This document shows positions 8,288 through 64,000 of a stretch of 64,000 bases of DNA, piece by piece. The position numbers were made by a program, and so were the translations under genes. Positions within the stretch are counted from its first letter, which is position 1. Each line of letters begins with the position of its first letter. This DNA comes from a virus. The stretch is taken from IMG/VR virus record IMGVR_UViG_3300025120_000036, positions 1 to 64,000 of that record, one strand, 5' to 3'. The notes below the pieces were generated by a model. It did no database searches and was not told the origin of the DNA. It saw only the letters and a program-made list of their open reading frames with translations.

Positions 8288-8309
8288 TTTTTAGGCCATT
8301 TTCTGCGTA

Positions 8310-8317: not shown

Positions 8318-8342
8318 TAGACACGTTCTCATATCTATGTTA

Positions 8343-8350
8343 TATTTATA
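8343..8350 (-). promoter_or_regulatory. Late promoter, exact TATAAATA, for the tape-measure/head operon
   Basis: The minus strand reads TATAAATA here, 55 bases before the ATG of the tape-measure-like gene at 8287. It points leftward across the rightward promoter at 8310-8317, so the two transcripts should be complementary over a few tens of bases at their 5' ends. Confidence 0.7.
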
Positions 8351-8361
8351 GAACGTAAATT

Positions 8362-47773: not shown

Positions 47774-47780
47774 ACAGTTA
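47762..47780. repeat. 8-bp inverted repeat over -10 and start codon
   Basis: TAACTGTA (47762-47769) and TACAGTTA (47773-47780) are perfect inverted copies separated by TAA. The element covers the TATAAT and touches the ATG, so it could be a repressor operator. Confidence 0.5.
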
Positions 47781-48095: not shown

Positions 48096-48623
48096 ATGAT
48101 TATTGAAAAAATTAAGGCTCAGGTTGAAATACCTTTTATAAATTTTCAATTAGATAATTTTTCTGATTATCGTAAAGATATTATTTCTAGCATCAAAAAA
48201 GAAGCGGTTGCAAATTCTTTTGAGAAACTTTCACAAGGAAAAAGAACTCCATGGCACATTATAAAATATAATTCAATTAAATGGTTAGCAGATCAAGTGA
48301 CAAACGCAATTGGCAAATTTGATAAACGGCAAGAAGGAGCACTTGTGTGTAAGGAAATATGGGGTATAGTCTATCAAGGCAAAGATAATCATAAGAGTCA
48401 TAATCATTATCCTGCAACTTGGAGTGCTGTTGCTTACATAGATTGTCCAGAAGGCAGTGGAAATACTGTGTGGCCTAACTTAAAAAAAACTATAAAACCA
48501 CAAGATGGATCAGTTTGTGTCTTTCCAGGTTGGCTAAATCATCATGTAGAACCATCTATAGATGATGTTGAAAGAATAATAGTGTCATGCAACGTATATT
48601 CAAAGAGGCAAATAAATGAGTAA
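48096..48623 (+). CDS. 2OG-Fe(II) oxygenase (phage type)
   Basis: A 175-residue protein with KSHNHYPATWSAVAYIDCPEG, FPGWLNHHVEPSIDDVERIIVSCNVY, matching the small 2OG oxygenases common in T4-like marine phages (pattern H-x-H, FP-x-WL-x-H-V-x-P, E/D-R-I). His102 or His104, and His149 or His150 with Arg160, are the likely iron and 2OG ligands. The substrate is unknown. It overlaps the next gene by 8 bases and starts the accessory cluster. Confidence 0.75.
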   Translation: MIIEKIKAQVEIPFINFQLDNFSDYRKDIISSIKKEAVANSFEKLSQGKRTPWHIIKYNSIKWLADQVTNAIGKFDKRQEGALVCKEIWGIVYQGKDNHKSHNHYPATWSAVAYIDCPEGSGNTVWPNLKKTIKPQDGSVCVFPGWLNHHVEPSIDDVERIIVSCNVYSKRQINE

Positions 48624-49380
48624 AGGTGTATTATTATATTGTTTTGATACAAACCATACACAGTATCATAAACTTGCATTGCGTTGTATTGATTTTATTA
48701 ATAAAAATTTAAAACTTCCTGTGACAGTGGTAACTGATCATACAACACATAGACATTTCCCACAGTTTGCAGGCGTATGCTATCATGTTATAAAAAACAA
48801 AACTAACAATAATAGATTGTACAGAGGTAAAACAGTGCCGTGGCACAACGAAGAAAGATCAAATGCCTATGATCATTCACCATACGATACCACATTGTTA
48901 ATTGACTGTGACTTTTTTCCTTACACAGATAACTTGGCACAATACATGGATACTGATTATGATTTTTTATGTCATAATACTGTGCATGATGCTACTGGGG
49001 TATTTCAAATATTGTCCAAAAATGAATCTGTTCTGCCAATTGTATGGGCAACAGTTTGTATTTTTAAAAAAAATGAAAATGTAAAAGCACTGTTTGACAC
49101 TTTTAAAATGGTGCAACAAAATTACGAGCATTACAGACAGATGTATAGAATTACACACAAAAATTTCCGTAATGATTACGCTTTGGCAATAGCTTTGCAC
49201 CAATGCAATGGCCACACTAAAAATTTTAATTACTTTCCAACTCCTATGATAATGCTTCCACTAGATGTAGATGTTTTAGAAATGGACGATACAACTGTAA
49301 CTTACAGATACAGACGTTGTGTAGGAGTAATAGAGAATCAAGATGTACACATTTTAGACAAGGAGTTTTGCAATGAGTAA
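48616..49380 (+). CDS. Glycosyltransferase-like protein A
   Basis: A 254-residue protein with a GT-A-like layout: VTVVTDH near residue 35, a DxD-like DTTLLIDCDFFPYT near residue 95, and RNDYALAIALHQC near residue 190, a pattern seen in nucleotide-sugar transferases. It begins MSKG, as does the following related gene. It overlaps the oxygenase (8 bases) and the next gene (8 bases). It is probably a sugar transferase or its relative; donor unknown. Confidence 0.5.
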   Translation: MSKGVLLYCFDTNHTQYHKLALRCIDFINKNLKLPVTVVTDHTTHRHFPQFAGVCYHVIKNKTNNNRLYRGKTVPWHNEERSNAYDHSPYDTTLLIDCDFFPYTDNLAQYMDTDYDFLCHNTVHDATGVFQILSKNESVLPIVWATVCIFKKNENVKALFDTFKMVQQNYEHYRQMYRITHKNFRNDYALAIALHQCNGHTKNFNYFPTPMIMLPLDVDVLEMDDTTVTYRYRRCVGVIENQDVHILDKEFCNE

Positions 49381-50188
49381 AGGATTTGTTTGGTTTGCAT
49401 TAAACAATGCAAAAACTGATTATGTTAAATTAAGCGAACGTTTAGGTGGAGCAATTAAAAAGTATAATAAAAATAATCAAACTTGTATTATCACAGACAA
49501 TCATATGCTTCAGATTCCTAATGCTGTAAAAAATATTGATAGAGTAATTTTAATTAATGAAAATACAAATCCTCATGAAGAATGGAATTTAAGCAATGAA
49601 TGGCAGGTTTTTAATTTAACTCCTTTTACCCATACTATTAAATTAGAAGCTGATATGTTATTGGATTGCAATATTGATTATTGGTGGAATTATTTGCATC
49701 AGCATGATATGATATTCAGTTGGAATTGCAGAAACTTTCAAGATGAAATTATTACTAGCACTCCTTATAGAGATCTTTTTAAACAAAATAATTTACCAAA
49801 CATTTACAGCAGTCTGACTTACTTTCGTAGATCAGTGTTTGCTGATAAATTTTATCAGTTGTGCAGAGACATCACAAAAAATTGGAAACAAGTACAAGAA
49901 ACTTGCCTTGTAAAATGTTATGACAAGCAACCAACAACGGATGTTGTTTACGCACTAGCTTTAAAAATAATGGATCCAATGAATGATAAAAAAATTGATT
50001 TTGATTTTTTTAAGTTTGTACACAATAAAAAAGCTGTAAATAAAATATCAAGAAGTGTTGACACAGACGATTATTTGTATCCAATGATTACAGATAACAA
50101 ATTATATGTAGGTGGATACAAAATGAATAGACTGTGGCACTATCATAATAAAAATATACCGGAGGATTTAGATGCCAGGATTTTATGA
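49373..50188 (+). CDS. Glycosyltransferase-like protein B
   Basis: A 271-residue protein related in layout to the preceding gene. It has MSKGFVWFALNN, TCIITDNHM near residue 40, then THTIKLEADMLLDCNIDYWW with a DxD-like E-A-D-M, and TTDVVYALALKIM near residue 190, equivalent to the RNDYALAIA segment of its neighbour. Divergent paralogues by duplication are likely. Its end overlaps the next small gene by 17 bases. Confidence 0.5.
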   Translation: MSKGFVWFALNNAKTDYVKLSERLGGAIKKYNKNNQTCIITDNHMLQIPNAVKNIDRVILINENTNPHEEWNLSNEWQVFNLTPFTHTIKLEADMLLDCNIDYWWNYLHQHDMIFSWNCRNFQDEIITSTPYRDLFKQNNLPNIYSSLTYFRRSVFADKFYQLCRDITKNWKQVQETCLVKCYDKQPTTDVVYALALKIMDPMNDKKIDFDFFKFVHNKKAVNKISRSVDTDDYLYPMITDNKLYVGGYKMNRLWHYHNKNIPEDLDARIL

Positions 50189-50474
50189 GGCTTTTAATAA
50201 TTGGAAACACGTAGATAAAAAACATTTTGTTACAATAGCTGACAAAAAAATTGAAGTGTCTTTACAAAAAAAACTTGAGATAGACAGGCACGGAGTTGAA
50301 AAGTACGAGTTAGTTGACGGTGTTGTAAAACTTAAATTGATAGCAACAGTCAATATTCCACAAACTGAATTAGTAAAGGCTGAAAAAGGATACAAGTTTT
50401 ATGGAAAAAATCCTTTTTGGGTTGAATCAATTGGAGATAACGGACACATATGGAAAACAAAACAAAAGTCTTAG
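50172..50474 (+). CDS. Small unknown protein of the accessory cluster
   Basis: A 100-residue protein, ATG at 50172, overlapping both neighbours (17 and 25 bases). It has KKHFVTIADKKIEVSLQKKL and GYKFYGKNPFWVESIGDNGH, mainly beta in appearance. No known family recognised. Its embedding in the run of overlapping genes suggests a function with the glycosyltransferase-like proteins. Confidence 0.5.
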   Translation: MPGFYEAFNNWKHVDKKHFVTIADKKIEVSLQKKLEIDRHGVEKYELVDGVVKLKLIATVNIPQTELVKAEKGYKFYGKNPFWVESIGDNGHIWKTKQKS

Positions 50475-51346
50475 ATTTAGATTTTGTATTCATTAGTTAC
50501 AAAGAACCTAACTGTGAAGAAAATTATGCTGATCTACTTAATAAAGTACCATGGGCAAAACGTGTCCATGGTGTAAAAGGATTTGATACAGCACACAAGG
50601 CCGCGGCCGATGTTGCTGAAACTGATTTTTTTATTTCAATTGATGGCGACAATATTATTGATGAATCTTTTTTATTAGAAACAATGGATTGGTTTAAAAC
50701 GGATCCAAAATTTGTACATCGTTGGCGAGCAAGGAACAGTGTCAATGGTTTAGTTTATGGCAATGGAGGTTTGGTAGGTTGGCACAAAGAAACTGTGCGA
50801 CATATGAAAACTCACGAGAATGCAATTATCACAGACCACGTAGCAAAAAAAGACTTTTGTTGGACTGTTCCTCACGCAAATTTGCACAACTGTTATTCAA
50901 CAACAGTTATAAACACAACGCCAATGCAGGCATTTATGGCTGGTTACAGAGAAGGAGTAAAATTAAGCATGGATCGTGGAGCTAGAGTTGACCCAAGAGA
51001 ATTTACAAAAAAAATTGTAAAGAGCAACTTGGTTAAATTAATGAGCTGGATGACTGTTGGAGCAGATGTTGACAACGGACTATACGCTATGTTGGGAGCA
51101 AGGGTAGGCTGTTATGAATTAGCGGTGGCGGACAAAGCCAGTGAATTAGGACTAGATCAATTAGAGGAACTTTACAATGGCAGGTGTACAATTCCTATTT
51201 TAGATAATTTAAAACAATACAAAGGATCTCTGAATAATAGATTGGGTCTCAACATTGTTGATTTAGATGAGTCCAGCAGTAAATTTTTTAAATTTATACA
51301 ACCAAGTCATAGCAATCGTAAAATACAGACAGGTGAACATGAGTAA
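50450..51346 (+). CDS. Family-2-like glycosyltransferase
   Basis: A 298-residue protein. The N-terminal part (LDFVFISYKEPNCEENYADL, then HGVKGFDTAHKAAADVA and FFISIDGDNIID) is a GT-A nucleotide-sugar domain with a DGD (DxD) metal motif. The gene at 62095 has an equivalent domain. A C-terminal helical part contains MAGYREGVKLSMDRGARVD, also echoed there (WKNGFREVSKL). It overlaps the first radical SAM gene by 8 bases. Confidence 0.6.
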   Translation: MENKTKVLDLDFVFISYKEPNCEENYADLLNKVPWAKRVHGVKGFDTAHKAAADVAETDFFISIDGDNIIDESFLLETMDWFKTDPKFVHRWRARNSVNGLVYGNGGLVGWHKETVRHMKTHENAIITDHVAKKDFCWTVPHANLHNCYSTTVINTTPMQAFMAGYREGVKLSMDRGARVDPREFTKKIVKSNLVKLMSWMTVGADVDNGLYAMLGARVGCYELAVADKASELGLDQLEELYNGRCTIPILDNLKQYKGSLNNRLGLNIVDLDESSSKFFKFIQPSHSNRKIQTGEHE

Positions 51347-52700
51347 AAGTGTATACCAAAAAGCGGCAGACGATGCCAAAACAAAACTTGATACTGTGTC
51401 GCCAACATTTTGTTTGGCCAAGTGGAATCAAGTAAGTCTGCATCTGCCAACAGGAATGACAAATTCTTGTTATCACCCACCATTGCACAACATTGATGCC
51501 AAAGAATTAGAAAAGAATCCAGCCGCACTGCACAACACCAAACAAAAGTTAGCTGAAAGAGAACAAATGCTCAAAGGCAAAAGACCAGCTGGTTGCAGTT
51601 ATTGTTGGAACATTGAAGACACCGGCGGCACGTCAGACAGAATTTATCGTTCAGGAGAACCCTGGGCGATCCAAGATTTTGAGTCAATTGTTGGAAAACC
51701 TATAGACTCAGAATGGACACCGAGATACGTGGAAGTAAACTTTAATAATGCTTGTAATTTCAAGTGCAGTTATTGTTCACCACAGTTCTCAACAACGTGG
51801 GGCAAGGAGATTGACAGGTATGGCCAATATCCCACATCTCCTCCCCACAATGCTCCAGAACACTTTCAGGGCAGAAGACGTCCAATACCTCACAGAGAAG
51901 ACAATCCCTATGTAAATGCTTTTTGGAAATGGTGGCCTAAACTGTATCAAAATTTAAAACATTTTCGTATGACCGGTGGCGAACCATTAATGGACAAAAA
52001 CACATACAAAGTATTGGAATACATAATAGATCATCCAAAAAAAGATCTGCATTTGAACGTAACTAGTAATATGTGTCCCCCAGATAAAAAATTAAAAAAC
52101 AAATATTTTGACATGATAAAGCGTATATGTTTAGACGAACACGTAGAACATATGATGCAGTTTGTCAGTGTAGATGCACATGGTCCACAAGCAGAATACA
52201 TAAGGCACGGACTTGATTGGAATTATTTTACAGATACAGTGGAAGAATTTTTGTACAGAATACCTGTCCGTAACAGTGTGACTTTTATTATAACCTACAA
52301 TAATCTAAGTGTTACAACACTGGATAAACTGTTAAATTACATACGTGAATTAAGACAAAAATATTCTACAACATATCAAAGAGTATGGTTTGATATACCG
52401 TTGTTGCGTCAACCAGCTTGGCAACAAATAACATTACTGCCGGAAAGCTATCAAAAAATTCACGAAGACAATATATTAATGATGCAAAAACCTGCAGAGG
52501 GCTACGGAGCATATAAAGACTTTGAAATTCAAAAAATGCTTCGCAATTTAGCATACTGGCGAAAAAATTTTAATGCTGACGCAAAGCAAAAAAATAACTT
52601 TTACGCATTTTTTAACGAACACGATCGTAGACGCGGTACTAGTTTTGAAAAAACGTTTCCTGAAATGCAGGAATTTTGGCAGGAGTGTAAAAACGCATGA
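51339..52700 (+). CDS. Radical SAM protein 1 with N-terminal Cys-rich (twitch) domain
   Basis: A 454-residue protein from ATG 51339 (an upstream in-frame ATG at 51267 lies inside the previous gene). The radical SAM CNFKCSYC motif has Cys139, Cys143 and Cys146, with MTGGEPLM further on. An N-terminal Cys set (Cys25, Cys44 before HPP, Cys86, Cys89) would hold a second Fe-S cluster, like N-terminal-twitch radical SAM proteins. The substrate is unknown. It is closely related to the next protein, probably by tandem duplication. It overlaps its neighbours by 8 and 4 bases. Confidence 0.85.
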   Translation: MSKSVYQKAADDAKTKLDTVSPTFCLAKWNQVSLHLPTGMTNSCYHPPLHNIDAKELEKNPAALHNTKQKLAEREQMLKGKRPAGCSYCWNIEDTGGTSDRIYRSGEPWAIQDFESIVGKPIDSEWTPRYVEVNFNNACNFKCSYCSPQFSTTWGKEIDRYGQYPTSPPHNAPEHFQGRRRPIPHREDNPYVNAFWKWWPKLYQNLKHFRMTGGEPLMDKNTYKVLEYIIDHPKKDLHLNVTSNMCPPDKKLKNKYFDMIKRICLDEHVEHMMQFVSVDAHGPQAEYIRHGLDWNYFTDTVEEFLYRIPVRNSVTFIITYNNLSVTTLDKLLNYIRELRQKYSTTYQRVWFDIPLLRQPAWQQITLLPESYQKIHEDNILMMQKPAEGYGAYKDFEIQKMLRNLAYWRKNFNADAKQKNNFYAFFNEHDRRRGTSFEKTFPEMQEFWQECKNA

Positions 52701-54040
52701 AAGATATAGACTTTAAGAAGCAAGTGTTAGATAGTATTTCTCCAAGTTTTTGTGGAGCAAAATGGTACAATGCCACTATATGGTTAGGATCAGGAATGAC
52801 AACAAGCTGTCATCACCCACCTGCACATAAAGTTGATATTGAAAAGGTAAAACTTAATCCAAAACTGCTACACAATACACCACAGAAAAAGCAAGACAGA
52901 GCTAAAATGATCGCTGGTGAAAGACCAAAAGGTTGTGAATACTGTTGGAAGATAGAGGACATGGGCAGAGATGCTATTAGTGACAGAGTTTACAAAAGTA
53001 AAATATATAAAAATGAAGATCTAACAACAGCTAGCCGTACACCAATTACGGAAGATGTTAACTTGAAAACATTAGAAATTGCTTTTGATAGAACTTGTAA
53101 CTTTGCTTGTTCATACTGCAATCCAGCATTTAGTTCAACTTGGGTACGAGATATAAAACAAAAAGGTGCATATAAAAATTTAGTATCAGATGGCAGGAAT
53201 CATTTTACACACAACCATGACGGCGCACAACTTTACAAAGATACAGAAGAAAATCCATATGTTGAAGCATTTTTTAAATGGTGGGAATCAGATTTACATA
53301 AAACATTAGAAGAATTAAGAATTACAGGTGGTGAACCAATGATGAGTCCTAGTTTATGGAGATTGTTAGATTGGTTTGAAACACAAAAACACAGAGTAAA
53401 TCCTAAAATGAGATTAGCCATAAATTCTAATCTCGTGCCTAAAAGAGAACTGTTTTGTAAATTTTTAGAGAAAGTAAAAAATGTACCTAATTTACACATT
53501 TATACTTCTAATGAATCAACGTATGAACAATCAAATTACATAAGAGATGGCATGGATTATGTTTCTTGGTATACCCATTTGGTGAACTTACCGGATATTA
53601 GACCTGCAGGCATTCATAATATGTGTACTGTCAATGCGTTGTGTTTAGAAAGTTTACCTGAATTTTTAGATGAAATAGTAAAAAATAAAAAAGACTTTAA
53701 AAGAATATACAATGTAGATTTAAATTTTACTTTAAATATACTAAGGTTTCCTAGTTTTCAATCACCTTTAATTTTGCCTGACAATTTGAGAACAAGATTT
53801 AAGAAAAATTTACAAAGTTGGTTAGATAAAAATATAGAAGATCTAGAACCAATGGAAGTTGCACACACGTCAAGATTGATAGATTATTTAGATATAGTAA
53901 AAACACCTCATAGCGAGGCATTTAATTTACCAAAACTAAGGCAAGATTTTAAAAATTTCTATAAACAATACGACGAAAGAAGAAACAAAAATTTTATTAA
54001 AACTTTCCCAATAATAGGAGAATGGTATAATGGCTTATAA
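52697..54040 (+). CDS. Radical SAM protein 2 with N-terminal Cys-rich domain
   Basis: A 447-residue protein. CNFACSYC holds Cys134, Cys138 and Cys141, and ITGGEPMM follows. The N-terminal set Cys19, Cys38 (SCHHPP), Cys80 and Cys83 matches the first radical SAM protein, including the HPP in place of the usual PCC. The centre has the same FERM-like aromatic pattern, ATWNATIWL-type. It overlaps both neighbours (4 and 11 bases). Confidence 0.85.
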   Translation: MKDIDFKKQVLDSISPSFCGAKWYNATIWLGSGMTTSCHHPPAHKVDIEKVKLNPKLLHNTPQKKQDRAKMIAGERPKGCEYCWKIEDMGRDAISDRVYKSKIYKNEDLTTASRTPITEDVNLKTLEIAFDRTCNFACSYCNPAFSSTWVRDIKQKGAYKNLVSDGRNHFTHNHDGAQLYKDTEENPYVEAFFKWWESDLHKTLEELRITGGEPMMSPSLWRLLDWFETQKHRVNPKMRLAINSNLVPKRELFCKFLEKVKNVPNLHIYTSNESTYEQSNYIRDGMDYVSWYTHLVNLPDIRPAGIHNMCTVNALCLESLPEFLDEIVKNKKDFKRIYNVDLNFTLNILRFPSFQSPLILPDNLRTRFKKNLQSWLDKNIEDLEPMEVAHTSRLIDYLDIVKTPHSEAFNLPKLRQDFKNFYKQYDERRNKNFIKTFPIIGEWYNGL

Positions 54041-55322
54041 TTACGGCGCTAAAGAACCTGAAAAACTAAAAATTGAAGATATGACAGCTCGACAAAAAGA
54101 GTTGCTTATTGATAGTGATAGTTTTTGTATGTTGCCATGGATGCATCTTCATGCTTTCCCTGATGGTAGAGCTTATCCTTGTTGTTTTGGTTTAGACAAA
54201 TATCCTGTTGGAGACATGAATAAGCAGTCAATGAAAGAAGTATTCAACGACGAACCTTTAAAATTAATGCGTAGGAATATGTTGGCTAATAAAAAAAGCA
54301 AACAATGTGCTAAATGCTATGATCAAGAAAAGGCTGGATTCTTTAGTTTACGAATGAGTTCAAATAAACACTTTGGGCATGACATAGGCTTAATTGAAAA
54401 TACATTGCCGGACGGAACTGCAGATTTTATGATCAAATATTGGGATATAAGATTTTCTAATCTCTGTAATATGGCTTGTAGAAGTTGCGGAACTTGGTTT
54501 AGTTCTAACTGGTACGAAGATCATAAAAAAATACACGGTAGTGACCCGGGACATCCAAAGATAATGAGAGTGGGTCGAAACGGTAATGATGTTTGGAATC
54601 AATTGTTAGAACAATTTGATCATGTTGAACAATTTTACTTTGCCGGAGGCGAGCCTTTAATAATGGAAGAACATTATAGGATTCTAAAAGAATTGGATAA
54701 AAGAAAAATGTATCATGTAAGATTAATTTACAACACTAATTTCAGTAAATTAAAATTTAAAGATATGGATGTTTTAGAGCTTTGGAACAAATTTGATTCA
54801 GTATCTATAGGCGCAAGTTTAGACGCTGAAGGACCAAGAGCAGAATTGATGCGTAAGGGTACCAAATGGGAACAAACATTAGCAAATAGAAAACGTATGC
54901 TGGAAGTCTGTCCACAAGTTGATTTTTATCTATCAAGCACAGTAGGACTTATCAATGCTTTACATATTCCTGACTTTCACAAAAATTGGACGGAACAAGG
55001 GTTAATCAAAGCACAAGATTTTAATTTCAATTTATTACAATGGCCAAGTTGGCAAAGAATGGATATGTTACCTATTGAATATAAAAAAAGAATTGAAGAA
55101 AAATACTTGAAACACATTGATTGGCTAAAAGGCCAAGACCATTTGACCAGAGCAACAAAAGGTTTTGAAAGCGGAATAAAATGGATGTATGATAAAGATA
55201 CTTCTAGACATCTTCCAGAATTTTTTGAATTAACAAGAAAATATGATGCAGTAAGAGAAGAAACAACCACAGAAGTATTTCCTGAACTAAAAGAGTTATT
55301 TGACAAATATGAAAAGAAATAA
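54030..55322 (+). CDS. Radical SAM protein 3 with twitch-type N-terminus
   Basis: A 430-residue protein. CNMACRSC has Cys146, Cys150 and Cys153; FAGGEPLIM follows. The N-terminal SFCMLPWMHLHAFPDGRAYP with Cys33, then Cys51-Cys52 and CAKC at Cys93/Cys96, is the typical twitch pattern (C-x-x-PW, PCC, C-x-x-C). It differs from proteins 1 and 2 in having PCC, so it belongs to a second subfamily together with proteins 4 and 5. Confidence 0.85.
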   Translation: MAYNYGAKEPEKLKIEDMTARQKELLIDSDSFCMLPWMHLHAFPDGRAYPCCFGLDKYPVGDMNKQSMKEVFNDEPLKLMRRNMLANKKSKQCAKCYDQEKAGFFSLRMSSNKHFGHDIGLIENTLPDGTADFMIKYWDIRFSNLCNMACRSCGTWFSSNWYEDHKKIHGSDPGHPKIMRVGRNGNDVWNQLLEQFDHVEQFYFAGGEPLIMEEHYRILKELDKRKMYHVRLIYNTNFSKLKFKDMDVLELWNKFDSVSIGASLDAEGPRAELMRKGTKWEQTLANRKRMLEVCPQVDFYLSSTVGLINALHIPDFHKNWTEQGLIKAQDFNFNLLQWPSWQRMDMLPIEYKKRIEEKYLKHIDWLKGQDHLTRATKGFESGIKWMYDKDTSRHLPEFFELTRKYDAVREETTTEVFPELKELFDKYEKK

Positions 55323-56592
55323 GCCAAGTGAAGGCAACAAAACATTTTGTATGGCACCATGGACGCATACGTATTTGAGTCCACAAACAGAAAGACGTAT
55401 GTGTTGTGCGTCAAGAGAACCTGCACAAAGTTTTAAGCAATACATAGATACAGGAAACGATGCTAAAGAATACAAACCTAAAAGTTTAAAAGAACATTGG
55501 AACAGTGATCATATGCGTTCAGTAAGACAACAAATGATGTCTGGAGAAAAACTTAAAGAGTGTGTAGTGTGTGATGACAAACTGTTAAACACCGATGTTT
55601 ATAGGTCATATTGGAATCAGCTATTCAAAGACAAAGTAGACGAGGCGTTTGCATCAACAGATGACACAGGTTATACTACAATGAAAACAATTAGTTTTGA
55701 TTATAGATTTAATAATCTTTGTAATTTTAAGTGTAGAATGTGCGGAGATATGTTAAGCTCTAGTTGGGAAGCCGAGTCAAGAAAACATCAAAACTGGAAT
55801 AAAGACTCACAGCCTTGGATGGCATCACCTTTAAGAGAACAAATAAAAACGTTTCAAGACAAACAAGTTGTGCAGGAGTTTGTAGATGCTGTTGAAACAA
55901 AAGAAATAAGAGAGATATACTGGTGCGGTGGAGAACCTTTGATGTGGGATATGCATTGGAAAAGTATGGAAAGAATAATTGAGTTAGGATTTGCAGACCA
56001 AGTATACGTAAGATATAATTCTAATTTAAGTAGAACAAGTTTTAGAAAATCAAATTTGTTTGATCTTTTAGGATATTTTCAGGATTGGCAAGTGTGTGCA
56101 TCAATTGATGGCACAGGAGAGGTTGGAGAGTATATAAGAGATGGATTAAACTATGAACAGTGGTTACGTAATTTTAAAGAAGGTTTATCTGTTTCAACCA
56201 ATCCAAGACAAATGCGTTTAGATTTTACAATAACATTACTAGGGTTATTAGAATTAAAAAATATGTTTGATTTAAGCCAAGAATTAAACACTGAAATATT
56301 AACGAAAGTTATGTTTACATTTAGTAATGAAGAAATATTAAGTCCATTAAGTTTGCCTACAAAATTATTACATGAAATAATAGACGAAGCGTTAGCTTAC
56401 ATGGAGCCTAAAGCTACCTACAAACAACAAGCATTAATAGATGTTTTAAAAAATTTAAAAACAAGAGAAACTTTTACTGCTACAAAAAAAGGAAAAGTAA
56501 GACAGCTATGGTTAGACAAAATTCGTAAACAAGATATTACAAAACTATTAGCAAAGGATAAGAGGATATTAGAATGGTGGACAAGTATATAA
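55309..56592 (+). CDS. Radical SAM protein 4 with twitch-type N-terminus
   Basis: A 427-residue protein from ATG 55309 (MKRNKPSEGN); a TTG at 55300 is possible but less likely. CNFKCRMC has Cys138, Cys142 and Cys145, with CGGEPLMWD following. The N-terminal pattern CMAPWTHTYLSPQTERRMCC has Cys14 and Cys32-Cys33, then CVVC at Cys85/Cys88. It overlaps the preceding gene by 14 bases and the next by 19. Substrate unknown. Confidence 0.85.
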   Translation: MKRNKPSEGNKTFCMAPWTHTYLSPQTERRMCCASREPAQSFKQYIDTGNDAKEYKPKSLKEHWNSDHMRSVRQQMMSGEKLKECVVCDDKLLNTDVYRSYWNQLFKDKVDEAFASTDDTGYTTMKTISFDYRFNNLCNFKCRMCGDMLSSSWEAESRKHQNWNKDSQPWMASPLREQIKTFQDKQVVQEFVDAVETKEIREIYWCGGEPLMWDMHWKSMERIIELGFADQVYVRYNSNLSRTSFRKSNLFDLLGYFQDWQVCASIDGTGEVGEYIRDGLNYEQWLRNFKEGLSVSTNPRQMRLDFTITLLGLLELKNMFDLSQELNTEILTKVMFTFSNEEILSPLSLPTKLLHEIIDEALAYMEPKATYKQQALIDVLKNLKTRETFTATKKGKVRQLWLDKIRKQDITKLLAKDKRILEWWTSI

Positions 56593-57740
56593 AATCAAAT
56601 GTTTGTCCTTTACCATGGACACATTTAGAAGTTGATGTAAACGGTGGAGCGTCTCCGTGCTGTTTGTATAAAGGGTCCATACCCAATGTAAAAGTTTATG
56701 AAACAGGTTTAAAAAAAATACAACAAACTGATTTTATGAAAAACTTAAGGCAAGAGTTTAAAGAAGGAAAACGTCCTGATGGTTGTACAAACTGCTGGAG
56801 TGAGGAAGACGCAGGCAAGACATCAAAACGTATGAATTCATTATACAAAATTAAAAACAGTTTAAAAGATTGGACCCCCGATAGCGAGCCTTCACTAAAG
56901 TTTATTGACTTTAAGCTAGGCAATGTGTGTAATCTTAAATGTAGAATATGTGGATCATGGAGTTCAAGCAAATGGGCACAGGAGGAATTAGATTATGGTG
57001 AAAATCCCGTGGCAAGAAAAAATTTAAAAGAAGGCGGTTGGCCAAAACGCAATCCACAGTTTTTTGAAGATCTTAAGGAAGACTTGAAACACGTAGAATA
57101 TTTTGAGTTTACTGGCGGAGAGCCGTTTATGATAAAAGATCACTTTAAAATATTGATGCACTGTGTAGAAAAAGGATATGCAAAAAATATTGATATACAC
57201 TACAATACAAACGGAACACAATTACCAGGAATAGAAATATTTGACCTTTGGAGTTATTTCAAAAGGGTTGAAGTAGCATTCTCAATTGACGACGTTGGTG
57301 AGCAATTTGAATATCAAAGGCACCCAGCTAATTGGAGACAGGTAGGAGCAAATTTAGTCAAATGGAAAGAACGCAGAACACCTAACATGGATTTTCAAAT
57401 TTGTACTACTGTTAGTATGTTTAACATCTTTAGTTTGGCAAAAATTGCATTTTGGGTAGCACAATATCAACCTAAATTTTTTTATGTAAACACACTGTTT
57501 GATCCAGACTATTTCAATATTCAAACACTACCAAAAAATATAAAAAATATAGTTAACACTAGATACTCTATGTTAAGTGATTTTAAACCTACATTAAGGT
57601 TTATGAATGCTGTTGATAGAGATACGGCAGAAATTAGAAAGCAAAGAATGAATAGAATTGTAACTGCTGATGCATATAGGCATGAAAATTTTGGAGAAGT
57701 GTTTCCTCTTTTAAATAAAGTATTAGGAATTTATGAATAA
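56574..57740 (+). CDS. Radical SAM protein 5 with twitch-type N-terminus
   Basis: A 388-residue protein. CNLKCRIC has Cys119, Cys123 and Cys126; FTGGEPFMI follows. The N-terminal CPLPWTHLEVDVNGGASPCC has Cys11 and Cys29-Cys30, then CTNC at Cys71/Cys74. The last of five in a row; it overlaps the SGNH-like gene by 8 bases. Like the others it could supply a 5'-deoxyadenosyl radical for an epimerisation, crosslink or other unactivated C-H change. Confidence 0.85.
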   Translation: MVDKYIKSNVCPLPWTHLEVDVNGGASPCCLYKGSIPNVKVYETGLKKIQQTDFMKNLRQEFKEGKRPDGCTNCWSEEDAGKTSKRMNSLYKIKNSLKDWTPDSEPSLKFIDFKLGNVCNLKCRICGSWSSSKWAQEELDYGENPVARKNLKEGGWPKRNPQFFEDLKEDLKHVEYFEFTGGEPFMIKDHFKILMHCVEKGYAKNIDIHYNTNGTQLPGIEIFDLWSYFKRVEVAFSIDDVGEQFEYQRHPANWRQVGANLVKWKERRTPNMDFQICTTVSMFNIFSLAKIAFWVAQYQPKFFYVNTLFDPDYFNIQTLPKNIKNIVNTRYSMLSDFKPTLRFMNAVDRDTAEIRKQRMNRIVTADAYRHENFGEVFPLLNKVLGIYE

Positions 57741-58539
57741 AAATATTATATCAGGCGGTTGCAGTTTTACGTATGGTCATGAATTAAGTGATTGTAATCA
57801 TACAGGATTGCCACCTTCCAACAGAACATGGGCTAAAGGTTTGAGTGATTTGGTGCAAGGCAATTATTTTAGTGTAGCACAAGGCGGAATAGGAAATTCA
57901 GGAATTGCAAGAAAAGTTTTTGAATATATTTCACAAAATCCTACAGATATGGTTTTAGTAATGTGGAGTTTTCTTTCAAGATATGATGTTGCTATGCCAA
58001 GAAACAAATATTTAGAAGATACTCGTTGGGCTACAATAAGTCCTTGGGACACACAAGAAAAACAAGCAGAAGTGTACAGAACTTTATTAAGTTCAGAACC
58101 TCAACAAACGGCTTACAAATGGAGACGTGAACAACTAGGTACCACAGGCGTAAAAGAATATGCAGATGCTTTGTACAAATACCAAGCTAACGAATATAAT
58201 GAAGTACACAACAGTTGGAAAAGTATAATTTGGTTACAAAATATATTAGAAAAGAAAAAAATACCATTTTTGTTTACACTTGCAGATAATACATTGTTTT
58301 ACGATCACGATAAACCTCACAGTAATATAGACACTTTTATGACATACTTACACAATGAAATAGATTTTACCAAGTGGTTCACATTTGGCGAAAGAAAGAT
58401 GGGCTTCAACCAATGGTCAGCAGTAAATGATTATCCAAGAGGCACAACACATCCACTAGACGAAGCACACAAAGATGCTGTACAATTAATGAAAGAAAAG
58501 TTTTTAGAAATTTATAACCAAAAGGAGAAAAATGATTAA
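57733..58539 (+). CDS. SGNH-type hydrolase-like protein
   Basis: A 268-residue protein starting NKNIISGGCSFTYGHEL, where Ser11 occupies the GDS nucleophile place of SGNH esterases. GGIGNSGIAR (block II-like) follows, and HPLDEAHKDA near residues 239-246 gives the D-x-x-H block. Such proteins de-acylate or acylate sugars. The phage versions often sit with glycosyltransferases. It overlaps the last radical SAM gene by 8 bases. Confidence 0.6.
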   Translation: MNKNIISGGCSFTYGHELSDCNHTGLPPSNRTWAKGLSDLVQGNYFSVAQGGIGNSGIARKVFEYISQNPTDMVLVMWSFLSRYDVAMPRNKYLEDTRWATISPWDTQEKQAEVYRTLLSSEPQQTAYKWRREQLGTTGVKEYADALYKYQANEYNEVHNSWKSIIWLQNILEKKKIPFLFTLADNTLFYDHDKPHSNIDTFMTYLHNEIDFTKWFTFGERKMGFNQWSAVNDYPRGTTHPLDEAHKDAVQLMKEKFLEIYNQKEKND

Positions 58540-58651
58540 ATGGCTTAAAGCAATGTTTGACAAAATCTTACCAGAAAAGATTAAGGCAGAAATTGCATAT
58601 AGAAAAAGGCTGAAAGAATTAAAGAAAAAAGATCCTTTCATATACAAATAA
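58532..58651 (+). CDS. 39-residue basic protein before the carbamoyltransferase
   Basis: A small frame of 39 residues, MIKWLKAMFDKILPEKIKAE and so on, ending DPFIYK. AAAGGAG stands just ahead of the ATG (spacing 4-5), and the frame overlaps the end of the SGNH-like gene by 8 bases and ends one base before the carbamoyltransferase start. It has an amphipathic basic helix. I recall similar short proteins in marine T4-like phages; the function is unknown. Confidence 0.6.
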   Translation: MIKWLKAMFDKILPEKIKAEIAYRKRLKELKKKDPFIYK

Positions 58652-58652
58652 A

Positions 58653-60137
58653 ATGAGAATACTAGGTATTAATTGCATGAACCATGACGCCGCTATGGCT
58701 GTCATAGATGGACAAGACATTGTCTGGGCCGCTCATGCTGAACGATATAGCAAGGTAAAAAATGATCATTACTTGAATCAAGAGATAGTAAATGAGGCAA
58801 TGTCCTTTGGACCGTTTGATAAAGTGGTGTACTATGAAAAACCTTTGCTTAAAAAGACAAGGCAGTTTTACGCAAAACAATATGGATTAGCTATTGATTC
58901 AAAGGAAATGCCTTTACAACACCTTAAAACATTTGGCATTAATAAAATTGACGAATATATTTTGCATCACGAATCTCACGCCGCAACAGGATACTATACA
59001 TCACCTTATAGAGACTGTGTAATTTTAACAGTTGATGCAATAGGCGAGTGGGACACAATTAGTATATGGTTAGGACAAAATGGCAAAATGGAACTTAAAG
59101 AAAGAACTAGATATCCTCATTCTTTGGGAATATTATATTCTGCATTTACACAGAGATGTGGATTAAAACCAGCTGAAGAAGAATATATTTTAATGGGCAT
59201 GGCCGCTTATGGAATGCCTATCTACAAAAACAAAATTTATAGAGATTTTATTCATAGTTCAAATCCTTTTCAATTAACAAAAAATTTACATAAAGGATTA
59301 GGAGACTGGATGCCTGATGCAGATGTAATGGATATAGCAAGATCCATACAAGAAGTCACAGAAGAAATATTGGCAACACTGTGGCACAAGGCGGCATCAT
59401 ATCTACCAGCAAAAAGTTTAATGGCACCACAGCGTAATCTTGTATTTGGCGGAGGAGTAGCTTTGAACTGTGCGGCCAATAGCAAGTTAGCTGAATTAGG
59501 TTTATTTGATAATATTTGGATTATGCCTAATCCAGGAGATGCAGGATCGTCAATTGGTTGTGTTGCGGCGTCGCAAAAAGAATTTTTAAATTGGGAACAC
59601 CCATTTTTAGGACACGAAATCAAAGGTGAATACCCTGTAGACAGATTAATAAAAGAATTGAAAGAAAATAAAATGTGTGGAGTGGCAAGTGGCAAAGCGG
59701 AATTTGGACCAAGAGCACTTGGTAATAGATCACTGTTAGCAGATCCTCGTGGACCTGAAGTTAAAGATTTGGTAAATCAAATAAAGCGTAGACAGAAGTT
59801 TAGACCGTTTGCTCCAGCCATATTAGAAGAGGATGTAAACGACTATTTTACTCTGCCTAAGTCAGTGAAAAACACCCCTTATATGCAATTTACAGCGGCG
59901 TGTGTGCGTGGTAAAGACTTCCCTGCCATAATACATCATGATGGCACATCTAGGGTCCAAACGGTGCGTAAGACGGATAATCCAGGGTTTCATGCACTAC
60001 TTACTGAGTGGAAAAAACAGACAGGTTGCCCTATACTTTTGAACACTAGTTTGAACATAAAGGGTCAACCAATTGTAAATGATGAGGCAGATGGTAAAGC
60101 CTTTGAAAACAAATATGGAGTGAAAGTGTTTTCGTGA
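58653..60137 (+). CDS. Carbamoyltransferase (NodU/CmcH family)
   Basis: A 494-residue enzyme that transfers a carbamoyl group from carbamoyl phosphate to a hydroxyl. N-terminal Kae1-like part: NHDAAMAVID, HHESHAATGYY (metal His pair), VDAIGEWDTIS, and GGGVALNCAANSKL. C-terminal YrdC-like part: EFGPRALGNRSLLADPRG, KFRPFAPAIL, ILLNTSLNIKGQPIV. The order and spacing are complete. In phages these enzymes are thought to modify DNA bases or sugars; its neighbours point to sugar. It overlaps the epimerase by 4 bases. Confidence 0.85.
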   Translation: MRILGINCMNHDAAMAVIDGQDIVWAAHAERYSKVKNDHYLNQEIVNEAMSFGPFDKVVYYEKPLLKKTRQFYAKQYGLAIDSKEMPLQHLKTFGINKIDEYILHHESHAATGYYTSPYRDCVILTVDAIGEWDTISIWLGQNGKMELKERTRYPHSLGILYSAFTQRCGLKPAEEEYILMGMAAYGMPIYKNKIYRDFIHSSNPFQLTKNLHKGLGDWMPDADVMDIARSIQEVTEEILATLWHKAASYLPAKSLMAPQRNLVFGGGVALNCAANSKLAELGLFDNIWIMPNPGDAGSSIGCVAASQKEFLNWEHPFLGHEIKGEYPVDRLIKELKENKMCGVASGKAEFGPRALGNRSLLADPRGPEVKDLVNQIKRRQKFRPFAPAILEEDVNDYFTLPKSVKNTPYMQFTAACVRGKDFPAIIHHDGTSRVQTVRKTDNPGFHALLTEWKKQTGCPILLNTSLNIKGQPIVNDEADGKAFENKYGVKVFS

Positions 60138-61075
60138 AAATTCTCGTAACAGGTGGAAATGGCTTTATTGGATCTAAAATTGTTGAATTGTTGTGTAAGA
60201 AACACAAGATCACAGTACTAGACAACAACGAAACCTACGGATTAGTTCATCAGGAACAATTACAAAATTTATTAAAATGGCGTCAAAGAAATTGGAAAAA
60301 AATTAGTACTACTATCACGGGAGATATTAGAAAGTCTTTAGTTGGATTGAAAGCATTTAAAAGCAGACCAGATTTAGTAATCCATTTAGCATCGTACCCA
60401 AGAGCAAAAATTGTACAAAATAATCCTGTAGACGGAGTTAGTCAAATTGTAGACGGTACAGTAAATATGCTTTGGCACGCCGCTAAATTTGGAGCCAAAA
60501 AATTTGTGTATGTAAGTTCTAGTATGGTGTATGGCAATTACAAAGATGGCACACGAGAAGATGCAAAAACAAAACCTATAAACATATACGGTGAAGCAAA
60601 ACTAACTTGTGAAAGGTTAACTAAACTTTGGTGTACAAATAATAAATTAGACTATTCGATTGTAAGACCAAGTGGTGTTTATGGCCCTGGCGATTTGCCA
60701 GACAGAGTAATAAGCAAGTTTTTCGAGGCGGCTATGAATAATAAAACTTTAAAAGTACATGGCAAAAACAAAGTAGATTTCACGTACAGAAAAGATGCGG
60801 CACAGGGTATAATAGATGTAGCATTAGCAAAACATACAAATACAAGTTTTAATATTACTGCCGGTAAAGCCACAAGTCTAAAAGAAGCGGCAAAATTAAT
60901 TGTTAAGATATGTAAAAGTAAAAGTAAAATTGTTGATACAGGTGCAAAAGCATTATATCCTATTAGAGGTACTTTGAATACTAATAGAGCTAAAAAGTAT
61001 TGTGATTATAAACCAACAATGAAATTAGAGGAAGGACTTATAAGTTACTATGAGTGGTTACAAAATCAGATTTAA
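60134..61075 (+). CDS. NAD-dependent epimerase/dehydratase (extended SDR)
   Basis: A 313-residue protein with GGNGFIGSKIVELL (NAD-binding Gly motif), SSSMVYG with the catalytic Ser near 129, and Tyr152/Lys156 in IYGEAK. The C-terminal sugar-binding part has GVYGPGDLPDRV. It resembles nucleotide-sugar 4-epimerases or dehydratases. It probably makes the substrate for the aminotransferase and glycosyltransferases beside it. It overlaps the next gene by 26 bases. Confidence 0.8.
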   Translation: MKILVTGGNGFIGSKIVELLCKKHKITVLDNNETYGLVHQEQLQNLLKWRQRNWKKISTTITGDIRKSLVGLKAFKSRPDLVIHLASYPRAKIVQNNPVDGVSQIVDGTVNMLWHAAKFGAKKFVYVSSSMVYGNYKDGTREDAKTKPINIYGEAKLTCERLTKLWCTNNKLDYSIVRPSGVYGPGDLPDRVISKFFEAAMNNKTLKVHGKNKVDFTYRKDAAQGIIDVALAKHTNTSFNITAGKATSLKEAAKLIVKICKSKSKIVDTGAKALYPIRGTLNTNRAKKYCDYKPTMKLEEGLISYYEWLQNQI

Positions 61076-62105
61076 TGGACTTGACAGACTGTATGACTCA
61101 TTTAGTTGGCGGTTAACTAGAAGAGCAAAGAAAGCCTGGGAGACAGGTATTGTTGTTGACGGAACTTTCCTACAAAAACTTGAAGCCAAAATTGCTGACA
61201 AAAGTCTTAGAAAATTTGCTGTTGGTGTTGCTAGTGCAACAGATGGTTTATATTTTGCTATGAAAGCCTTAGGATTGAACAAAGATTCAGTGATAGGATG
61301 TCCTGTATTAAGTTATGTTGCAACTGGTGGAGCAATCAAAAGACTAGGTGCCAGATTAGAATATATTGATGTTGATCAATATGGCAGTATAGGATCTTTA
61401 GATTCAAAAAAATTAGATGCAGTTGTTTATGTCAACTTGTATGGTAGTCCTGCAGAGTATCAAAGGTTAAAAGATTTTTGCAATGACAAACACATACCAC
61501 TAATAGAGGATGCCGCACAATCACAAGGAGCATGGTATCACGGAATACCTAGCGGCAAAATGGGAGACATAAGTGTTTATAGTTTTGCGCCTTCAAAAAA
61601 TTTACCATGTTTTGGCACCGGAGGAATGATACTCACAGACAACGCTGATGTCTATGACAAATTGAAGTCTTTAAGAAAGCATGGTCTAGGAACTAAAGAA
61701 CACGGATACAATAGTATTTTAAGTGAAGATCATGCAAGTCAATTGACACTATTACTAGACAAATTTGATTCTTTGCAAAAAATGAGAGAACACATACAGA
61801 AACGTTATGAAAAACAATTAAAAGGTATTGAATTTTTAATTAAAAAAGAGAAAGGTGTTTTTCCTAGCTATCATAAGTGTGTCATTATGTGCAATGAAAG
61901 AAACAAATTAAAAAGTTATCTAGACAATTATGGCATAGAAACAGCAATTCATTATTCTTATCTGCTGGACAAAACAATGACTCATCACTATCCTATGGCA
62001 GAACTTATACAAGCACAGTGTTTAAGTTTGCCTATATATCCGTATTTGAAAGAGTCAGAAGTTGATTATATTTGTAACAGGATAAAAAAGTTTTATGGCA
62101 TTTGA
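61050..62105 (+). CDS. DegT/DnrJ/EryC1-type sugar aminotransferase
   Basis: A 351-residue PLP enzyme. LIEDAAQSQGA (Asp154) and YSFAPSKNLPCFGTGGMI with PLP lysine Lys183 are the family hallmarks, along with ASATDGLYFAMKALG near the N-terminus. Such enzymes transfer an amino group to a keto-sugar nucleotide, usually after an epimerase/dehydratase like the one just before. It overlaps both neighbours (26 and 11 bases). Confidence 0.85.
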   Translation: MSGYKIRFNGLDRLYDSFSWRLTRRAKKAWETGIVVDGTFLQKLEAKIADKSLRKFAVGVASATDGLYFAMKALGLNKDSVIGCPVLSYVATGGAIKRLGARLEYIDVDQYGSIGSLDSKKLDAVVYVNLYGSPAEYQRLKDFCNDKHIPLIEDAAQSQGAWYHGIPSGKMGDISVYSFAPSKNLPCFGTGGMILTDNADVYDKLKSLRKHGLGTKEHGYNSILSEDHASQLTLLLDKFDSLQKMREHIQKRYEKQLKGIEFLIKKEKGVFPSYHKCVIMCNERNKLKSYLDNYGIETAIHYSYLLDKTMTHHYPMAELIQAQCLSLPIYPYLKESEVDYICNRIKKFYGI

Positions 62106-63423
62106 TTGTTTTTGTATAGATCTAAAAAATAAAACCAATGAGAAAAATATCACTGTCATACAGGAAAAATTTCCACAGGCTAAAATACTACCTTTTACAA
62201 AAAACTATAAAAACACAATTGACTATGCTGTTGAAACAGCAAAAACAGAATACGTTTGGATATTAACAAGTCTTATTGATTATACAGAGTTTGATTTTGA
62301 TTTCATTCCTGAACAGTTTGAAAAGGACCAGATACATACGTGGTCAACTTACAATCAAAAAGAAGGTGATACGTTTTTAGTCCCTAAAGTATACCTCACG
62401 CAAAAAGTTAAATTTTTAAGAGATTATAAAGATGTAAATTATCACGTAACAGGATACCTAAAATACGATGATGAAATTGAAGAGCATCAGTATGATCTAT
62501 CAAATGCTGTTGAGTCTTTACCCAATTTAAAAAATCCACCGCATAGATACATTTGTTATAAAACAAACACCGGCTACCGTTGGCCTTTTTTCCCAAGTTA
62601 TTGGGATGATTTAAAAATTGTACAAGACGCCGACGTATTTTATATTCCAATACACGCAATTGAACAAATTAAAAATGACATTTATGATTATCCATTAATA
62701 TACACTAGACATCAAAACAAGAATGTAGATTGTTTTGATATTGCTTTTATTTCTAATGGAGAGCCCTTTGAACAACAAAATTATGATCTTTTAAAAAAAC
62801 ACATTGAAATATACAAATTAAAAAATAGATTAATATGGATCAGAAACGTTAAAGGGAGATCACAAGCATACAAAACTGCGGCTAATAAAGTTGATACAGA
62901 ATATTTTTATGCTGTGTTTGCCAAAAGCAGAGTAGATAAAAATTTTATGTTTGATTACACAGTCGATAGATGTAAATCTAAAAGGCATTATATTTTTCAT
63001 TCATACTTGCCTGAATTAGAAATAGACTATGGAACCTTTAACATTTCAGCATTCAATAAAACACTATGTTTAAATACCGGAGATGATGTTTTAGATTTTA
63101 CTTTAGCACAACAACACGAAGTTGTCACCACTGTGGCCTCAGTTGCACTGCTGGCACCGGACAATTATACTGCATGGAAAAATGGTTTTAGAGAAGTTTC
63201 AAAACTAGTTTACTGGAATAAACACACTCCAACTGTAGAAACAAGTTATAGAATAAAGAAATGGTTAAATTGCAATAACGAATGGTTAAAAAAAGGTGCA
63301 AGTGATGGGGAGCAGTTTACTAAAGAATCAAACTTTAATTTAGATAAAATACAAAAAACTTATTATTGGGATTTTTGTAGAAAGACTTTTAATTCAAAGT
63401 ATCCAGCTGAAACTTCTTATTAA
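62095..63423 (+). CDS. Two-part glycosyltransferase-like protein
   Basis: A 442-residue protein. The second half has DIAFISNGEPFEQQNYDLL, IRNVKGRSQAYKTAANKV and FYAVFAKSRVDKNFM, parallel to the domain of the gene at 50450 (FISYKEP, VKGFDTAHKAAADVA, ISIDGDNII), but the DxD is replaced by F-A-K-S-R, so catalysis may be lost. The first half has a similar outline (TIDYAVETAKTEYVWILTSL). It may be a double GT-A domain protein. Its end overlaps the convergent epimerase by 35 bases. Confidence 0.45.
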   Translation: MAFDCFCIDLKNKTNEKNITVIQEKFPQAKILPFTKNYKNTIDYAVETAKTEYVWILTSLIDYTEFDFDFIPEQFEKDQIHTWSTYNQKEGDTFLVPKVYLTQKVKFLRDYKDVNYHVTGYLKYDDEIEEHQYDLSNAVESLPNLKNPPHRYICYKTNTGYRWPFFPSYWDDLKIVQDADVFYIPIHAIEQIKNDIYDYPLIYTRHQNKNVDCFDIAFISNGEPFEQQNYDLLKKHIEIYKLKNRLIWIRNVKGRSQAYKTAANKVDTEYFYAVFAKSRVDKNFMFDYTVDRCKSKRHYIFHSYLPELEIDYGTFNISAFNKTLCLNTGDDVLDFTLAQQHEVVTTVASVALLAPDNYTAWKNGFREVSKLVYWNKHTPTVETSYRIKKWLNCNNEWLKKGASDGEQFTKESNFNLDKIQKTYYWDFCRKTFNSKYPAETSY

Positions 63424-64000
63424 TTTTCAAATTTTTGTGATAAAACGGTTGTTTTAAAAACCAATCTATGTATGCTGGTATGCCAGTTTCGATGTCAGTG
63501 GTTGGAGCCCAATTAAACATAGATTTTGCTTTGTCACTATTCAACGTATCTCTGTTTGGATAAAAACTATCGTGTGGTAGTGTTAGAATTTTTCCATAGC
63601 CTAATTTGTTTTTTATTAGTTCAGCGGCTTCAATTATTTTTCTGCCATTACCTCTTGTGCAATTAAAAGTTTCGTTGTAAATCTCGCTTGTGGTTGCCAC
63701 ACTAAAATACTTCGCAACATCAAACACATCAGAAAAATCTAGTTTGTTGTCTGGTCCTTGCACAGTCATTGTACCATTTGTTAAACAATTCTTAGTCAAT
63801 TGACTTATTACTCTCACTATGGCATCTGTTGTGCCATATAATGCTGATGGACGCATTATTACATAGTTCAATCCTTTTTCTCTGTGCCAAATTTTACACA
63901 TTAGTTCACCCTGTCTTTTAAAAGATCCATACAAAGTATTAGGTTTTGGCATTACATCTTCATTAGGTATATTGTCTTTGAAGTCACCATATACCATACT
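63389..64000 (-). CDS. NAD-dependent epimerase/dehydratase, C-terminal part (cut by right edge)
   Basis: About 204 codons including stop, open to base 64000, so the N-terminal Rossmann part lies beyond the window. Visible: MVYGDFK, LYGSFKRQGELM with Tyr-x-x-x-Lys catalytic pair, NYVIMRPSALYGTTDAIVRV (sugar-site region) and NSDKAKSMFNWAPTTDIETG near the end. It resembles the epimerase at 60134 in layout but is divergent. It is convergent with the plus-strand cluster, overlapping by 35 bases, so a second cluster on the minus strand may continue to the right. Confidence 0.8.
   Translation of the reverse strand, partial: SMVYGDFKDNIPNEDVMPKPNTLYGSFKRQGELMCKIWHREKGLNYVIMRPSALYGTTDAIVRVISQLTKNCLTNGTMTVQGPDNKLDFSDVFDVAKYFSVATTSEIYNETFNCTRGNGRKIIEAAELIKNKLGYGKILTLPHDSFYPNRDTLNSDKAKSMFNWAPTTDIETGIPAYIDWFLKQPFYHKNLKINKKFQLDTLN

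Follow-up and report, generated by a model that had tools for sequence, protein, structure and literature searches.

The region described here is a run of plus-strand genes in a window of 64,000 nucleotides (bases 1-64,000 of the 68,973-base virus record IMGVR_UViG_3300025120_000036), where a fibre-like gene is followed by predicted glycosyltransferases (GTs, G1 to G3), five radical S-adenosylmethionine (rSAM) proteins (R1 to R5), an SGNH-type protein, a carbamoyltransferase (CT) and sugar-nucleotide genes (Table 1). It sits downstream of baseplate and fibre-like genes, that is, in the tail region of a T4-like phage. The phage itself is identified as a T4-like myovirus by its baseplate proteins and portal, the closest portals (about 50% identity) being those of the jumbo phages PA5oct, Phosso and Atu_ph07; related contigs range up to 354 kb, with one of 608 kb. 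An initial assignment to the pelagimyophages was dropped, as the portal is nearest to PA5oct-type jumbo phages, HTVC008M-type phages not having been compared separately.

All open reading frames (ORFs) listed for the cluster are intact and on the plus strand, and most overlap their neighbours by 4-80 bases; for R1, which overlaps G3 by 80 bases, the listed start may be too early. A sequence-only reading had described an overlapping run of biosynthetic-looking genes, and every gene it named is present, intact and in frame where it had been placed. Pfam and NF033640 matches also bear out the families it gave to the 2-oxoglutarate (2OG) oxygenase, the five rSAM proteins, the CT, the epimerase (EPI) and the DegT aminotransferase (AT). 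Its gene list was nevertheless incomplete by two ORFs, of 100 and 39 amino acids (aa), and the conserved block begins upstream of the span it delimited, at the fibre-like gene 46731. At the other end the region runs past the window into a second epimerase (63389-64390) and a PIG-L deacetylase (64387-65034), both on the minus strand. The fixed downstream flank is a conserved pair encoding a MoxR-type AAA ATPase and a VWA-like metallopeptidase (6534-8922, minus strand, of locus L166; record positions 66533-68921).

Comparison with more than 200 related viral loci shows that the cluster is a stack of modules (a GT core, an rSAM set, a CT pair and exchangeable sugar genes) placed behind the fibre-like gene. 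A set anchored on R3 comprised 80 loci, reduced to 58 non-redundant ones (43 marine, 15 distant); each gene was counted only over loci with sequence available at its position. Across the 43 marine loci the order fibre-like gene, small gene, G1, G2, small gene, G3, R1-R5, SGNH is essentially fixed, and retention where visible is complete for G3 (40/40), R1 (41/41), R5 (36/36) and SGNH (34/34). The 15 distant loci keep G3, R1, R2, R4 and R5 wherever these positions are visible. Because these loci had been chosen by R3, the VWA gene beyond the far end served as an independent anchor: where there was room (n = 30), CT was found in 30 loci, AT in 26, EPI in 22 and G4, a homologue of G3, in 29.

The innermost module emerged from scans with the profiles of the fibre-like protein and of G3, for which the best 80 matches each were taken, so that the frequencies apply to the closer relatives of these queries only. 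G1 lies behind the fibre-like gene in 26 of 27 fibre-anchored loci, and G3 in 19 of the 21 with room; conversely, G1 lies upstream in all 52 G3-anchored loci and a tail-type gene in 47 of them. Fourteen of 58 non-redundant G3-anchored loci have a minimal form, in which the downstream flank adjoins the core directly, the only further gene of the cluster being a second G3, and rSAM, CT and sugar-nucleotide genes are absent; another 36 carry at least one N_Twi rSAM gene and 8 are undecided. Since this minimal form dispenses with rSAM, CT and sugar genes, the fibre-like gene and the GTs constitute the smallest unit; the remaining layers, located between G3 and the fixed flank, are optional. The block fibre-like/small/G1/G2/small/G3, an ancient core, is far more widespread than the rest of the cluster and is conserved across a wide group of uncultured large phages.

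Joint gain and loss of all the genes, as expected of one system, therefore holds only in part: the core and the main marine order are kept, but the oxygenase is absent from all 53 non-redundant relatives with sequence there (40 marine, 13 distant), EPI and AT are found in 15 and 20 of 24 relatives, respectively, and the core stands without the other layers in the 14 loci above. Independent presence in relatives, which the sequence-only reading had named as counter-evidence, was also encountered for some members, namely the rSAM set in a bacterial chromosome and the CT with its microprotein in unrelated phage contexts (see below). With layers so separately distributed, the proposal that all genes form one pathway is not supported.

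Table 1. Features of the tail-region cluster, with positions in the 64,000-nucleotide window
Feature	Position	Strand	Evidence
Fibre-like structural protein upstream of core	45113..46726	+	PHROG tail fiber and virion structural protein matches; upstream of core in marine relatives
Fibre-like protein heading core block	46731..47729	+	Present in 39/40 marine, 10/13 distant loci
104-aa small protein between fibre-like gene and G1	47780..48094	+	40/40 marine loci; analogue in 11/13 distant
2OG-Fe(II) oxygenase, private insertion of this phage	48096..48623	+	PF13759 (2OG-FeII_Oxy_5) 6.7e-15; 0/53 relatives
G1, predicted GT8-type GT-A fold glycosyltransferase	48616..49380	+	AlphaFold model, fold comparison, invariant DxD
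G2, G1 paralogue	49373..50188	+	hhalign E 2.3e-12 to G1; 40/40 marine loci
Small core protein, 100 aa	50172..50474	+	Homologue or analogue in 40/40 marine, 10/14 distant loci
G3, GT2-like with invariant DGDN	50450..51346	+	40/40 marine and 14/14 distant loci
R1, N_Twi radical SAM	51267..52700	+	NF033640 339 bits; rSAM and twitch Cys 100% conserved in 45 sequences
R2, N_Twi radical SAM	52697..54040	+	NF033640 286 bits; Cys invariant
R3, N_Twi radical SAM	54030..55322	+	NF033640 407 bits; model pLDDT 86
R4, N_Twi radical SAM, TTG start	55300..56592	+	NF033640 319 bits; Cys invariant
R5, N_Twi radical SAM	56574..57740	+	NF033640 371 bits; Cys invariant
SGNH-type hydrolase or acyltransferase	57733..58539	+	Conserved residues; 34/34 marine loci
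39-aa microprotein ending KKKDPFIYK	58532..58651	+	Upstream of CT in 67/72 CT-anchored loci
CT, NodU/TobZ-type O-carbamoyltransferase	58653..60137	+	PF16861 4.5e-53, PF02543 1.9e-43; 30/30 flank-anchored loci
EPI, SDR nucleotide-sugar epimerase family	60134..61075	+	PF01370 4.5e-39
AT, DegT sugar aminotransferase	61050..62105	+	PF01041 8.7e-62; pyridoxal phosphate (PLP) Lys183
G4, G3 homologue without DxD	62095..63423	+	hhalign E 1.1e-25 to G3; 23/24 loci
Second SDR epimerase, cut by window end (continues to 64390)	63389..64000	-	35% identical to EPI

The GT-like proteins of the window have no Pfam support above cut-off. The AlphaFold model of G1 (pLDDT 91) is closest in fold to glycogenin, LARGE and LgtC (VIA Z 15.8 for glycogenin and 14.9 for LgtC; root-mean-square deviation 3.1-3.9 over 198-200 aligned residues), and both aspartates of its D97xD99 metal site are invariant in 18 orthologues. 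By fold and DxD motif, G1 is thus predicted to act as a GT8-type GT-A glycosyltransferase. G2 is homologous to G1, and weak Glycos_transf_2 matches were obtained for 9 of 18 G3 orthologues, in line with the GT-like calls made from the sequence for these three genes; the fourth such call, G4, stands as a homologue of G3 but lacks the DxD motif, the DGDN position of G3 not being kept. From its position, the 104-aa protein at 47780 could be a chaperone. Solved structures searched with profiles of R3, G1 and G3 yielded nothing relevant; G2, G3 and the fibre-like protein had no match among 50,697 cultured-phage records; and neither PA5oct nor Phosso showed a match to the G1 profile.

Five consecutive ORFs (51267, 52697, 54030, 55300 and 56574) match the Radical_SAM family, and all of them exceed the curated NF033640 (N_Twi_rSAM) cut-off of 170 bits, with 286-407 bits. 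The CxxxCxxC and N-terminal auxiliary-cluster cysteines are 100% conserved within each paralogue group sampled, and the paralogues fall into five clades. The nearest folds of R3 are tied between CteB, anSME, BlsE, SkfB and DesII; as these include peptide-acting and sugar- or nucleoside-acting enzymes at equal distance, the radical chemistry cannot be assigned. We found no reaction assigned to the NF033640 family in the literature, and nothing direct on N_Twi rSAM proteins in phages or on rSAM proteins in Bdellovibrio. Partial matches to the core of viperin, an anti-phage defence protein, were discarded: they concern the rSAM core only (E 6e-10 to 6e-6), and the NF038283 cut-off of 180 bits was not reached.

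R1 and R3 retrieved only two Vibrio jumbo phages from the cultured phages, at about 22% identity. One Vibrio jumbo phage, K566 (L293), carries a group of distantly related N_Twi rSAM genes within a single region, which makes it a possible experimental model; G1 has no match in it. Two allele types each of R2 and R4 are mixed among the marine relatives (L006-L085), with identities to the window of about 80% versus 65% for R2 and about 80% versus 52% for R4, a pattern that suggests cassette-wise recombination. Four relatives (L015, L032, L044 and L049) carry a thioredoxin reductase-like gene (cluster c26) in the variable slot between SGNH and CT; its product could be an electron source for the rSAM enzymes.

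Relatives of the array also occur in bacteria. Orthologues of R1 to R5, one each, are found at a single chromosomal locus of a Bacteriovoracaceae, beside rpmA and obgE, where there are no GT, CT, SGNH or sugar genes. The NF033640 cut-off is passed in 63 of 129 genomes of Bacteriovoracales; N_Twi rSAM genes are strongly multiplied in this order, many genomes having at least 10 matches, often in tandem (L252 6049-18045; genomes G001-G132). Several of these genomes have a relative of R5 adjoining a G3 homologue and another rSAM family, and one of them displays the order fibre-like, small, G1, G2, small, G3, rSAM on a contig that also bears housekeeping genes (L291, G060:C21:128000-139884). A marine phage (L140) carries an rSAM set of Bdellovibrionota type at the same phage locus. 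Such sequence relationships show that these genes have been shared between phages and Bdellovibrionota, in one direction or the other. G1 was not detected in 58 genomes of a second bacterial class, a search run without positive control. The phage region was also seen on contigs within metagenome-assembled genomes of Pelagibacter, Flavobacterium and others (L247-L251), probably as mis-binned phage DNA.

Behind the array, the SGNH protein has no Pfam match; its Ser11, Gly52, Asn55 and His240/His246 are invariant across 55 orthologues. The CT contains both the N- and C-terminal carbamoyltransferase domains and the HDAA-type conserved residues, its nearest solved structures being NovN, GdmN and TobZ. 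Between them lies the 39-aa microprotein, with a nearly invariant C-terminus (YRKRLKELKKKDPFIYK) and a variable N-terminus. The short ORFs counted upstream of CT in Table 1 end in DPFIYK and lie at most 3.5 kb away, and no such ORF was found in 600 opposite-strand control stretches. The microprotein tracks CT and not the rSAM genes: the two are also paired between primase and helicase genes in other, unrelated phage contexts, and a marine single-cell virus record shows the order SGNH, SGNH, a variant ending in SDPYIYEE, CT. It was not seen near the more distant CTs of four other phage records, and the DPFIYK motif also ends some other small ORFs with different N-termini and neighbours.

The sugar genes at the distal end are the most noticeable part of the cluster to a reader of the sequence, and the most exchangeable. 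The second epimerase and PIG-L are each found in 11 of 24 loci, always together, and EPI, AT, this pair and a Gfo/Idh-type dehydrogenase gene occur in many combinations. AT conserves the PLP-binding K183, with QdtB and WbpE among its nearest solved structures. An amino-sugar product had been suggested from the combination of epimerase and aminotransferase, which does not follow from this pair alone: a keto-sugar source is needed as well, and EPI has a conserved SSS/Y152/K156 site (SSS-M-x-YG) without the TDE motif expected of a 4,6-dehydratase. The Gfo/Idh-type dehydrogenase, named by eye from its sequence and present near the cluster in 9 of 24 relatives, could supply a keto sugar there; it was not seen in this contig.

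Against two relatives, dS (synonymous divergence) exceeds 1 and is often saturated, with dN (nonsynonymous divergence) of 0.08-0.54 throughout the region, so that the conservation of the cluster orthologues is not due to chance. The rSAM proteins and CT belong to the best-conserved products of the region; the fibre-like protein, G1 and G2 vary more. Promoter and terminator scans of the region gave counts close to shuffled expectation. Transmembrane-like stretches are absent from all proteins of the region (maximum KD19 1.58); no flippase, polymerase or lipid-carrier transferase is therefore encoded, and the membrane flippase or polymerase of a Wzx/Wzy-type cluster is lacking among its proteins. 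Elsewhere in the window, a single ORF of 4,324 aa (26861-39835, plus strand) lies between a baseplate wedge gene and the fibre genes, and a 264-aa protein (12782-13576, plus strand), which may be an additional, distant component of the system on its upstream side, is 31% identical to family c65, whose genes adjoin rSAM and G3 genes in Bdellovibrionota and some phages.

Read naturally, a GT-fold core points to a glycan-type modification made by the phage, and host surface or virion, the two targets that the sequence-only reading had put forward, are the right pair to choose from. We tentatively favour the virion, with slightly less than even confidence: an uncultured marine T4-like jumbo phage would here carry a layered region for modifying its virion, in which the transferases glycosylate the fibre or another virion protein and the other layers decorate it. 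G1 to G3 would be made late, together with the tail, and would add sugars to the fibre-like protein 46731 or another virion protein, from sugar nucleotides of the host or made by the phage; EPI, AT and the epimerase/PIG-L pair would alter which sugar is supplied; each of R1 to R5 might catalyse a radical step of its own, acting on the same glycan or on the protein; and acyl and carbamoyl groups could be added or removed by SGNH and CT. The fibre surface would thereby become variable, with consequences for receptor binding or shielding. Two features favour modification of the virion over host-glycan synthesis: the core keeps its place behind the fibre-like gene, and membrane proteins are not encoded.

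Several points weigh against this interpretation. The protein 46731 matches no named family in the libraries searched, so its label as a fibre derives from position and neighbours, and its role as substrate is a proposal. Synteny with it may simply mirror late expression in a plastic tail region. The tied folds predicted for R3 do not separate peptide from sugar or nucleoside substrates, and the occurrence of CT and microprotein between primase and helicase genes means that a fibre is not necessarily the target of this pair. Among bacteria, the whole block was seen in just one genome, where it may represent captured phage DNA. Finally, phage GTs that alter the host O-antigen are also cytosolic, or could use a host flippase. 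A stronger version, in which the GTs and an ordered five-rSAM set jointly modify the phage's own tail-fibre protein, through radical-derived and carbamoylated changes of sugar or backbone and with machinery shared with predatory Bdellovibrionota, is on balance unlikely.

Remodelling of the host surface, whereby GTs and sugar genes would change lipopolysaccharide (LPS) or capsule late in infection to block superinfection and re-adsorption of progeny, is a serious although somewhat unlikely alternative. EPI, AT and PIG-L are typical of surface-glycan genes and vary between relatives as host-matched glycans would, and the tail islands of pelagimyophages, which combine GTs with radical SAM cassettes, have been interpreted as modifiers of the host surface (PMC7029224). 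The part that is invariant here is, however, the GTs with the fibre-like gene and not the sugar genes, which the minimal form lacks altogether. Synthesis of a surface polysaccharide from scratch would also require a flippase, a polymerase or a lipid-carrier transferase, and the region encodes no membrane protein.

Each layer having its own distribution, the region could instead gather unrelated systems: a GT core acting on the fibre, rSAM enzymes on a separate peptide or small molecule, CT and microprotein in a third function, and sugar genes acting on host LPS. The bacterial R1-R5 set without GT, CT or SGNH agrees with such independence. Yet R5 orthologues adjoin G3 homologues in Bdellovibrionota and the main marine lineage retains the layers together, which argues for some functional link; we consider a set of unrelated systems distinctly unlikely. 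We regard as very unlikely a system resembling ribosomally synthesized and post-translationally modified peptides (RiPPs), in which five SPASM/twitch rSAM enzymes would introduce cross-links or epimers into a ribosomal peptide, possibly the microprotein, or into a tail-protein backbone. SPASM/twitch enzymes often act on peptides, CteB, anSME and SkfB are among the best folds for R3, and a highly conserved short ORF directly follows the array and SGNH; but BlsE and DesII tie with the peptide enzymes, the conserved C-terminus and variable N-terminus of the microprotein are the reverse of a leader-core precursor, and its association with CT, even beside primase and helicase, rather than with the rSAM genes weakens its reading as a precursor. 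Hypermodification of DNA bases by GTs, rSAM, CT and 2OG oxygenase is extremely unlikely: the enzyme classes resemble those of known phage pathways and CT lies within the replication module of other phages, but the oxygenase is of the PF13759 type, not a TET/JBP match, and none of the relatives has it, the families found in the region include neither a pyrimidine hydroxymethylase nor a base kinase, the core follows a fibre-like gene, and we found nothing direct in the literature on DNA hypermodification with a CT.

If the virion is modified as we tentatively favour and the fibre is the substrate, this would, to our knowledge, be the first instance in which radical enzymes modify a phage particle, and host-range variation would have a new source; we know of no virus with radical-derived and carbamoylated changes of a virion protein. 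What had been a vague biosynthetic cluster can now be put as a claim open to test, in which a fibre-like gene makes up a conserved unit with three GT-type genes and radical SAM chemistry is layered onto it.

The nearest published description that we found is the host recognition cluster of pelagimyophages (Zaragoza-Solas et al. 2020, PMC7029224), where GTs, taken as O-chain modifiers, accompany radical SAM cassettes. Both are tail-region islands of marine T4-like phages that vary between relatives. Here, by contrast, the fibre-like gene and the GT core are invariant and separable from the rSAM array, and the portal is of the PA5oct/Phosso/Atu_ph07 type; the word "epimerase" does not occur in that paper. 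Glycosylation of virion proteins by phage-encoded GTs has been proposed for mycobacteriophages (PMC11256854). In both cases phage GTs are thought to target a virion protein, but the neighbour here is tail-fibre-like and not a capsid protein and there are additional rSAM and carbamoyl layers. As to individual families, G1 shares fold and DxD with the GT8 proteins LgtC, glycogenin and LARGE, at about 10% identity and with no Pfam family or relevant PDB sequence match. R1 to R5 belong to NF033640 by score and differ in being five fixed, separately evolving paralogues in one phage operon. CT has both domains and the HDAA-type residues of the NodU/TobZ/NovN O-carbamoyltransferases ("Nol-like" in cyanophages), with homologues in cultured cyanophages; its clade is distinguished by the DPFIYK microprotein gene upstream, not seen beside the more distant cultured-phage enzymes looked at. 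To these known systems the present analysis adds an invariant fibre-GT core separated from optional layers, a fixed set of five rSAM paralogues with bacterial orthologues, and a CT-microprotein pair.

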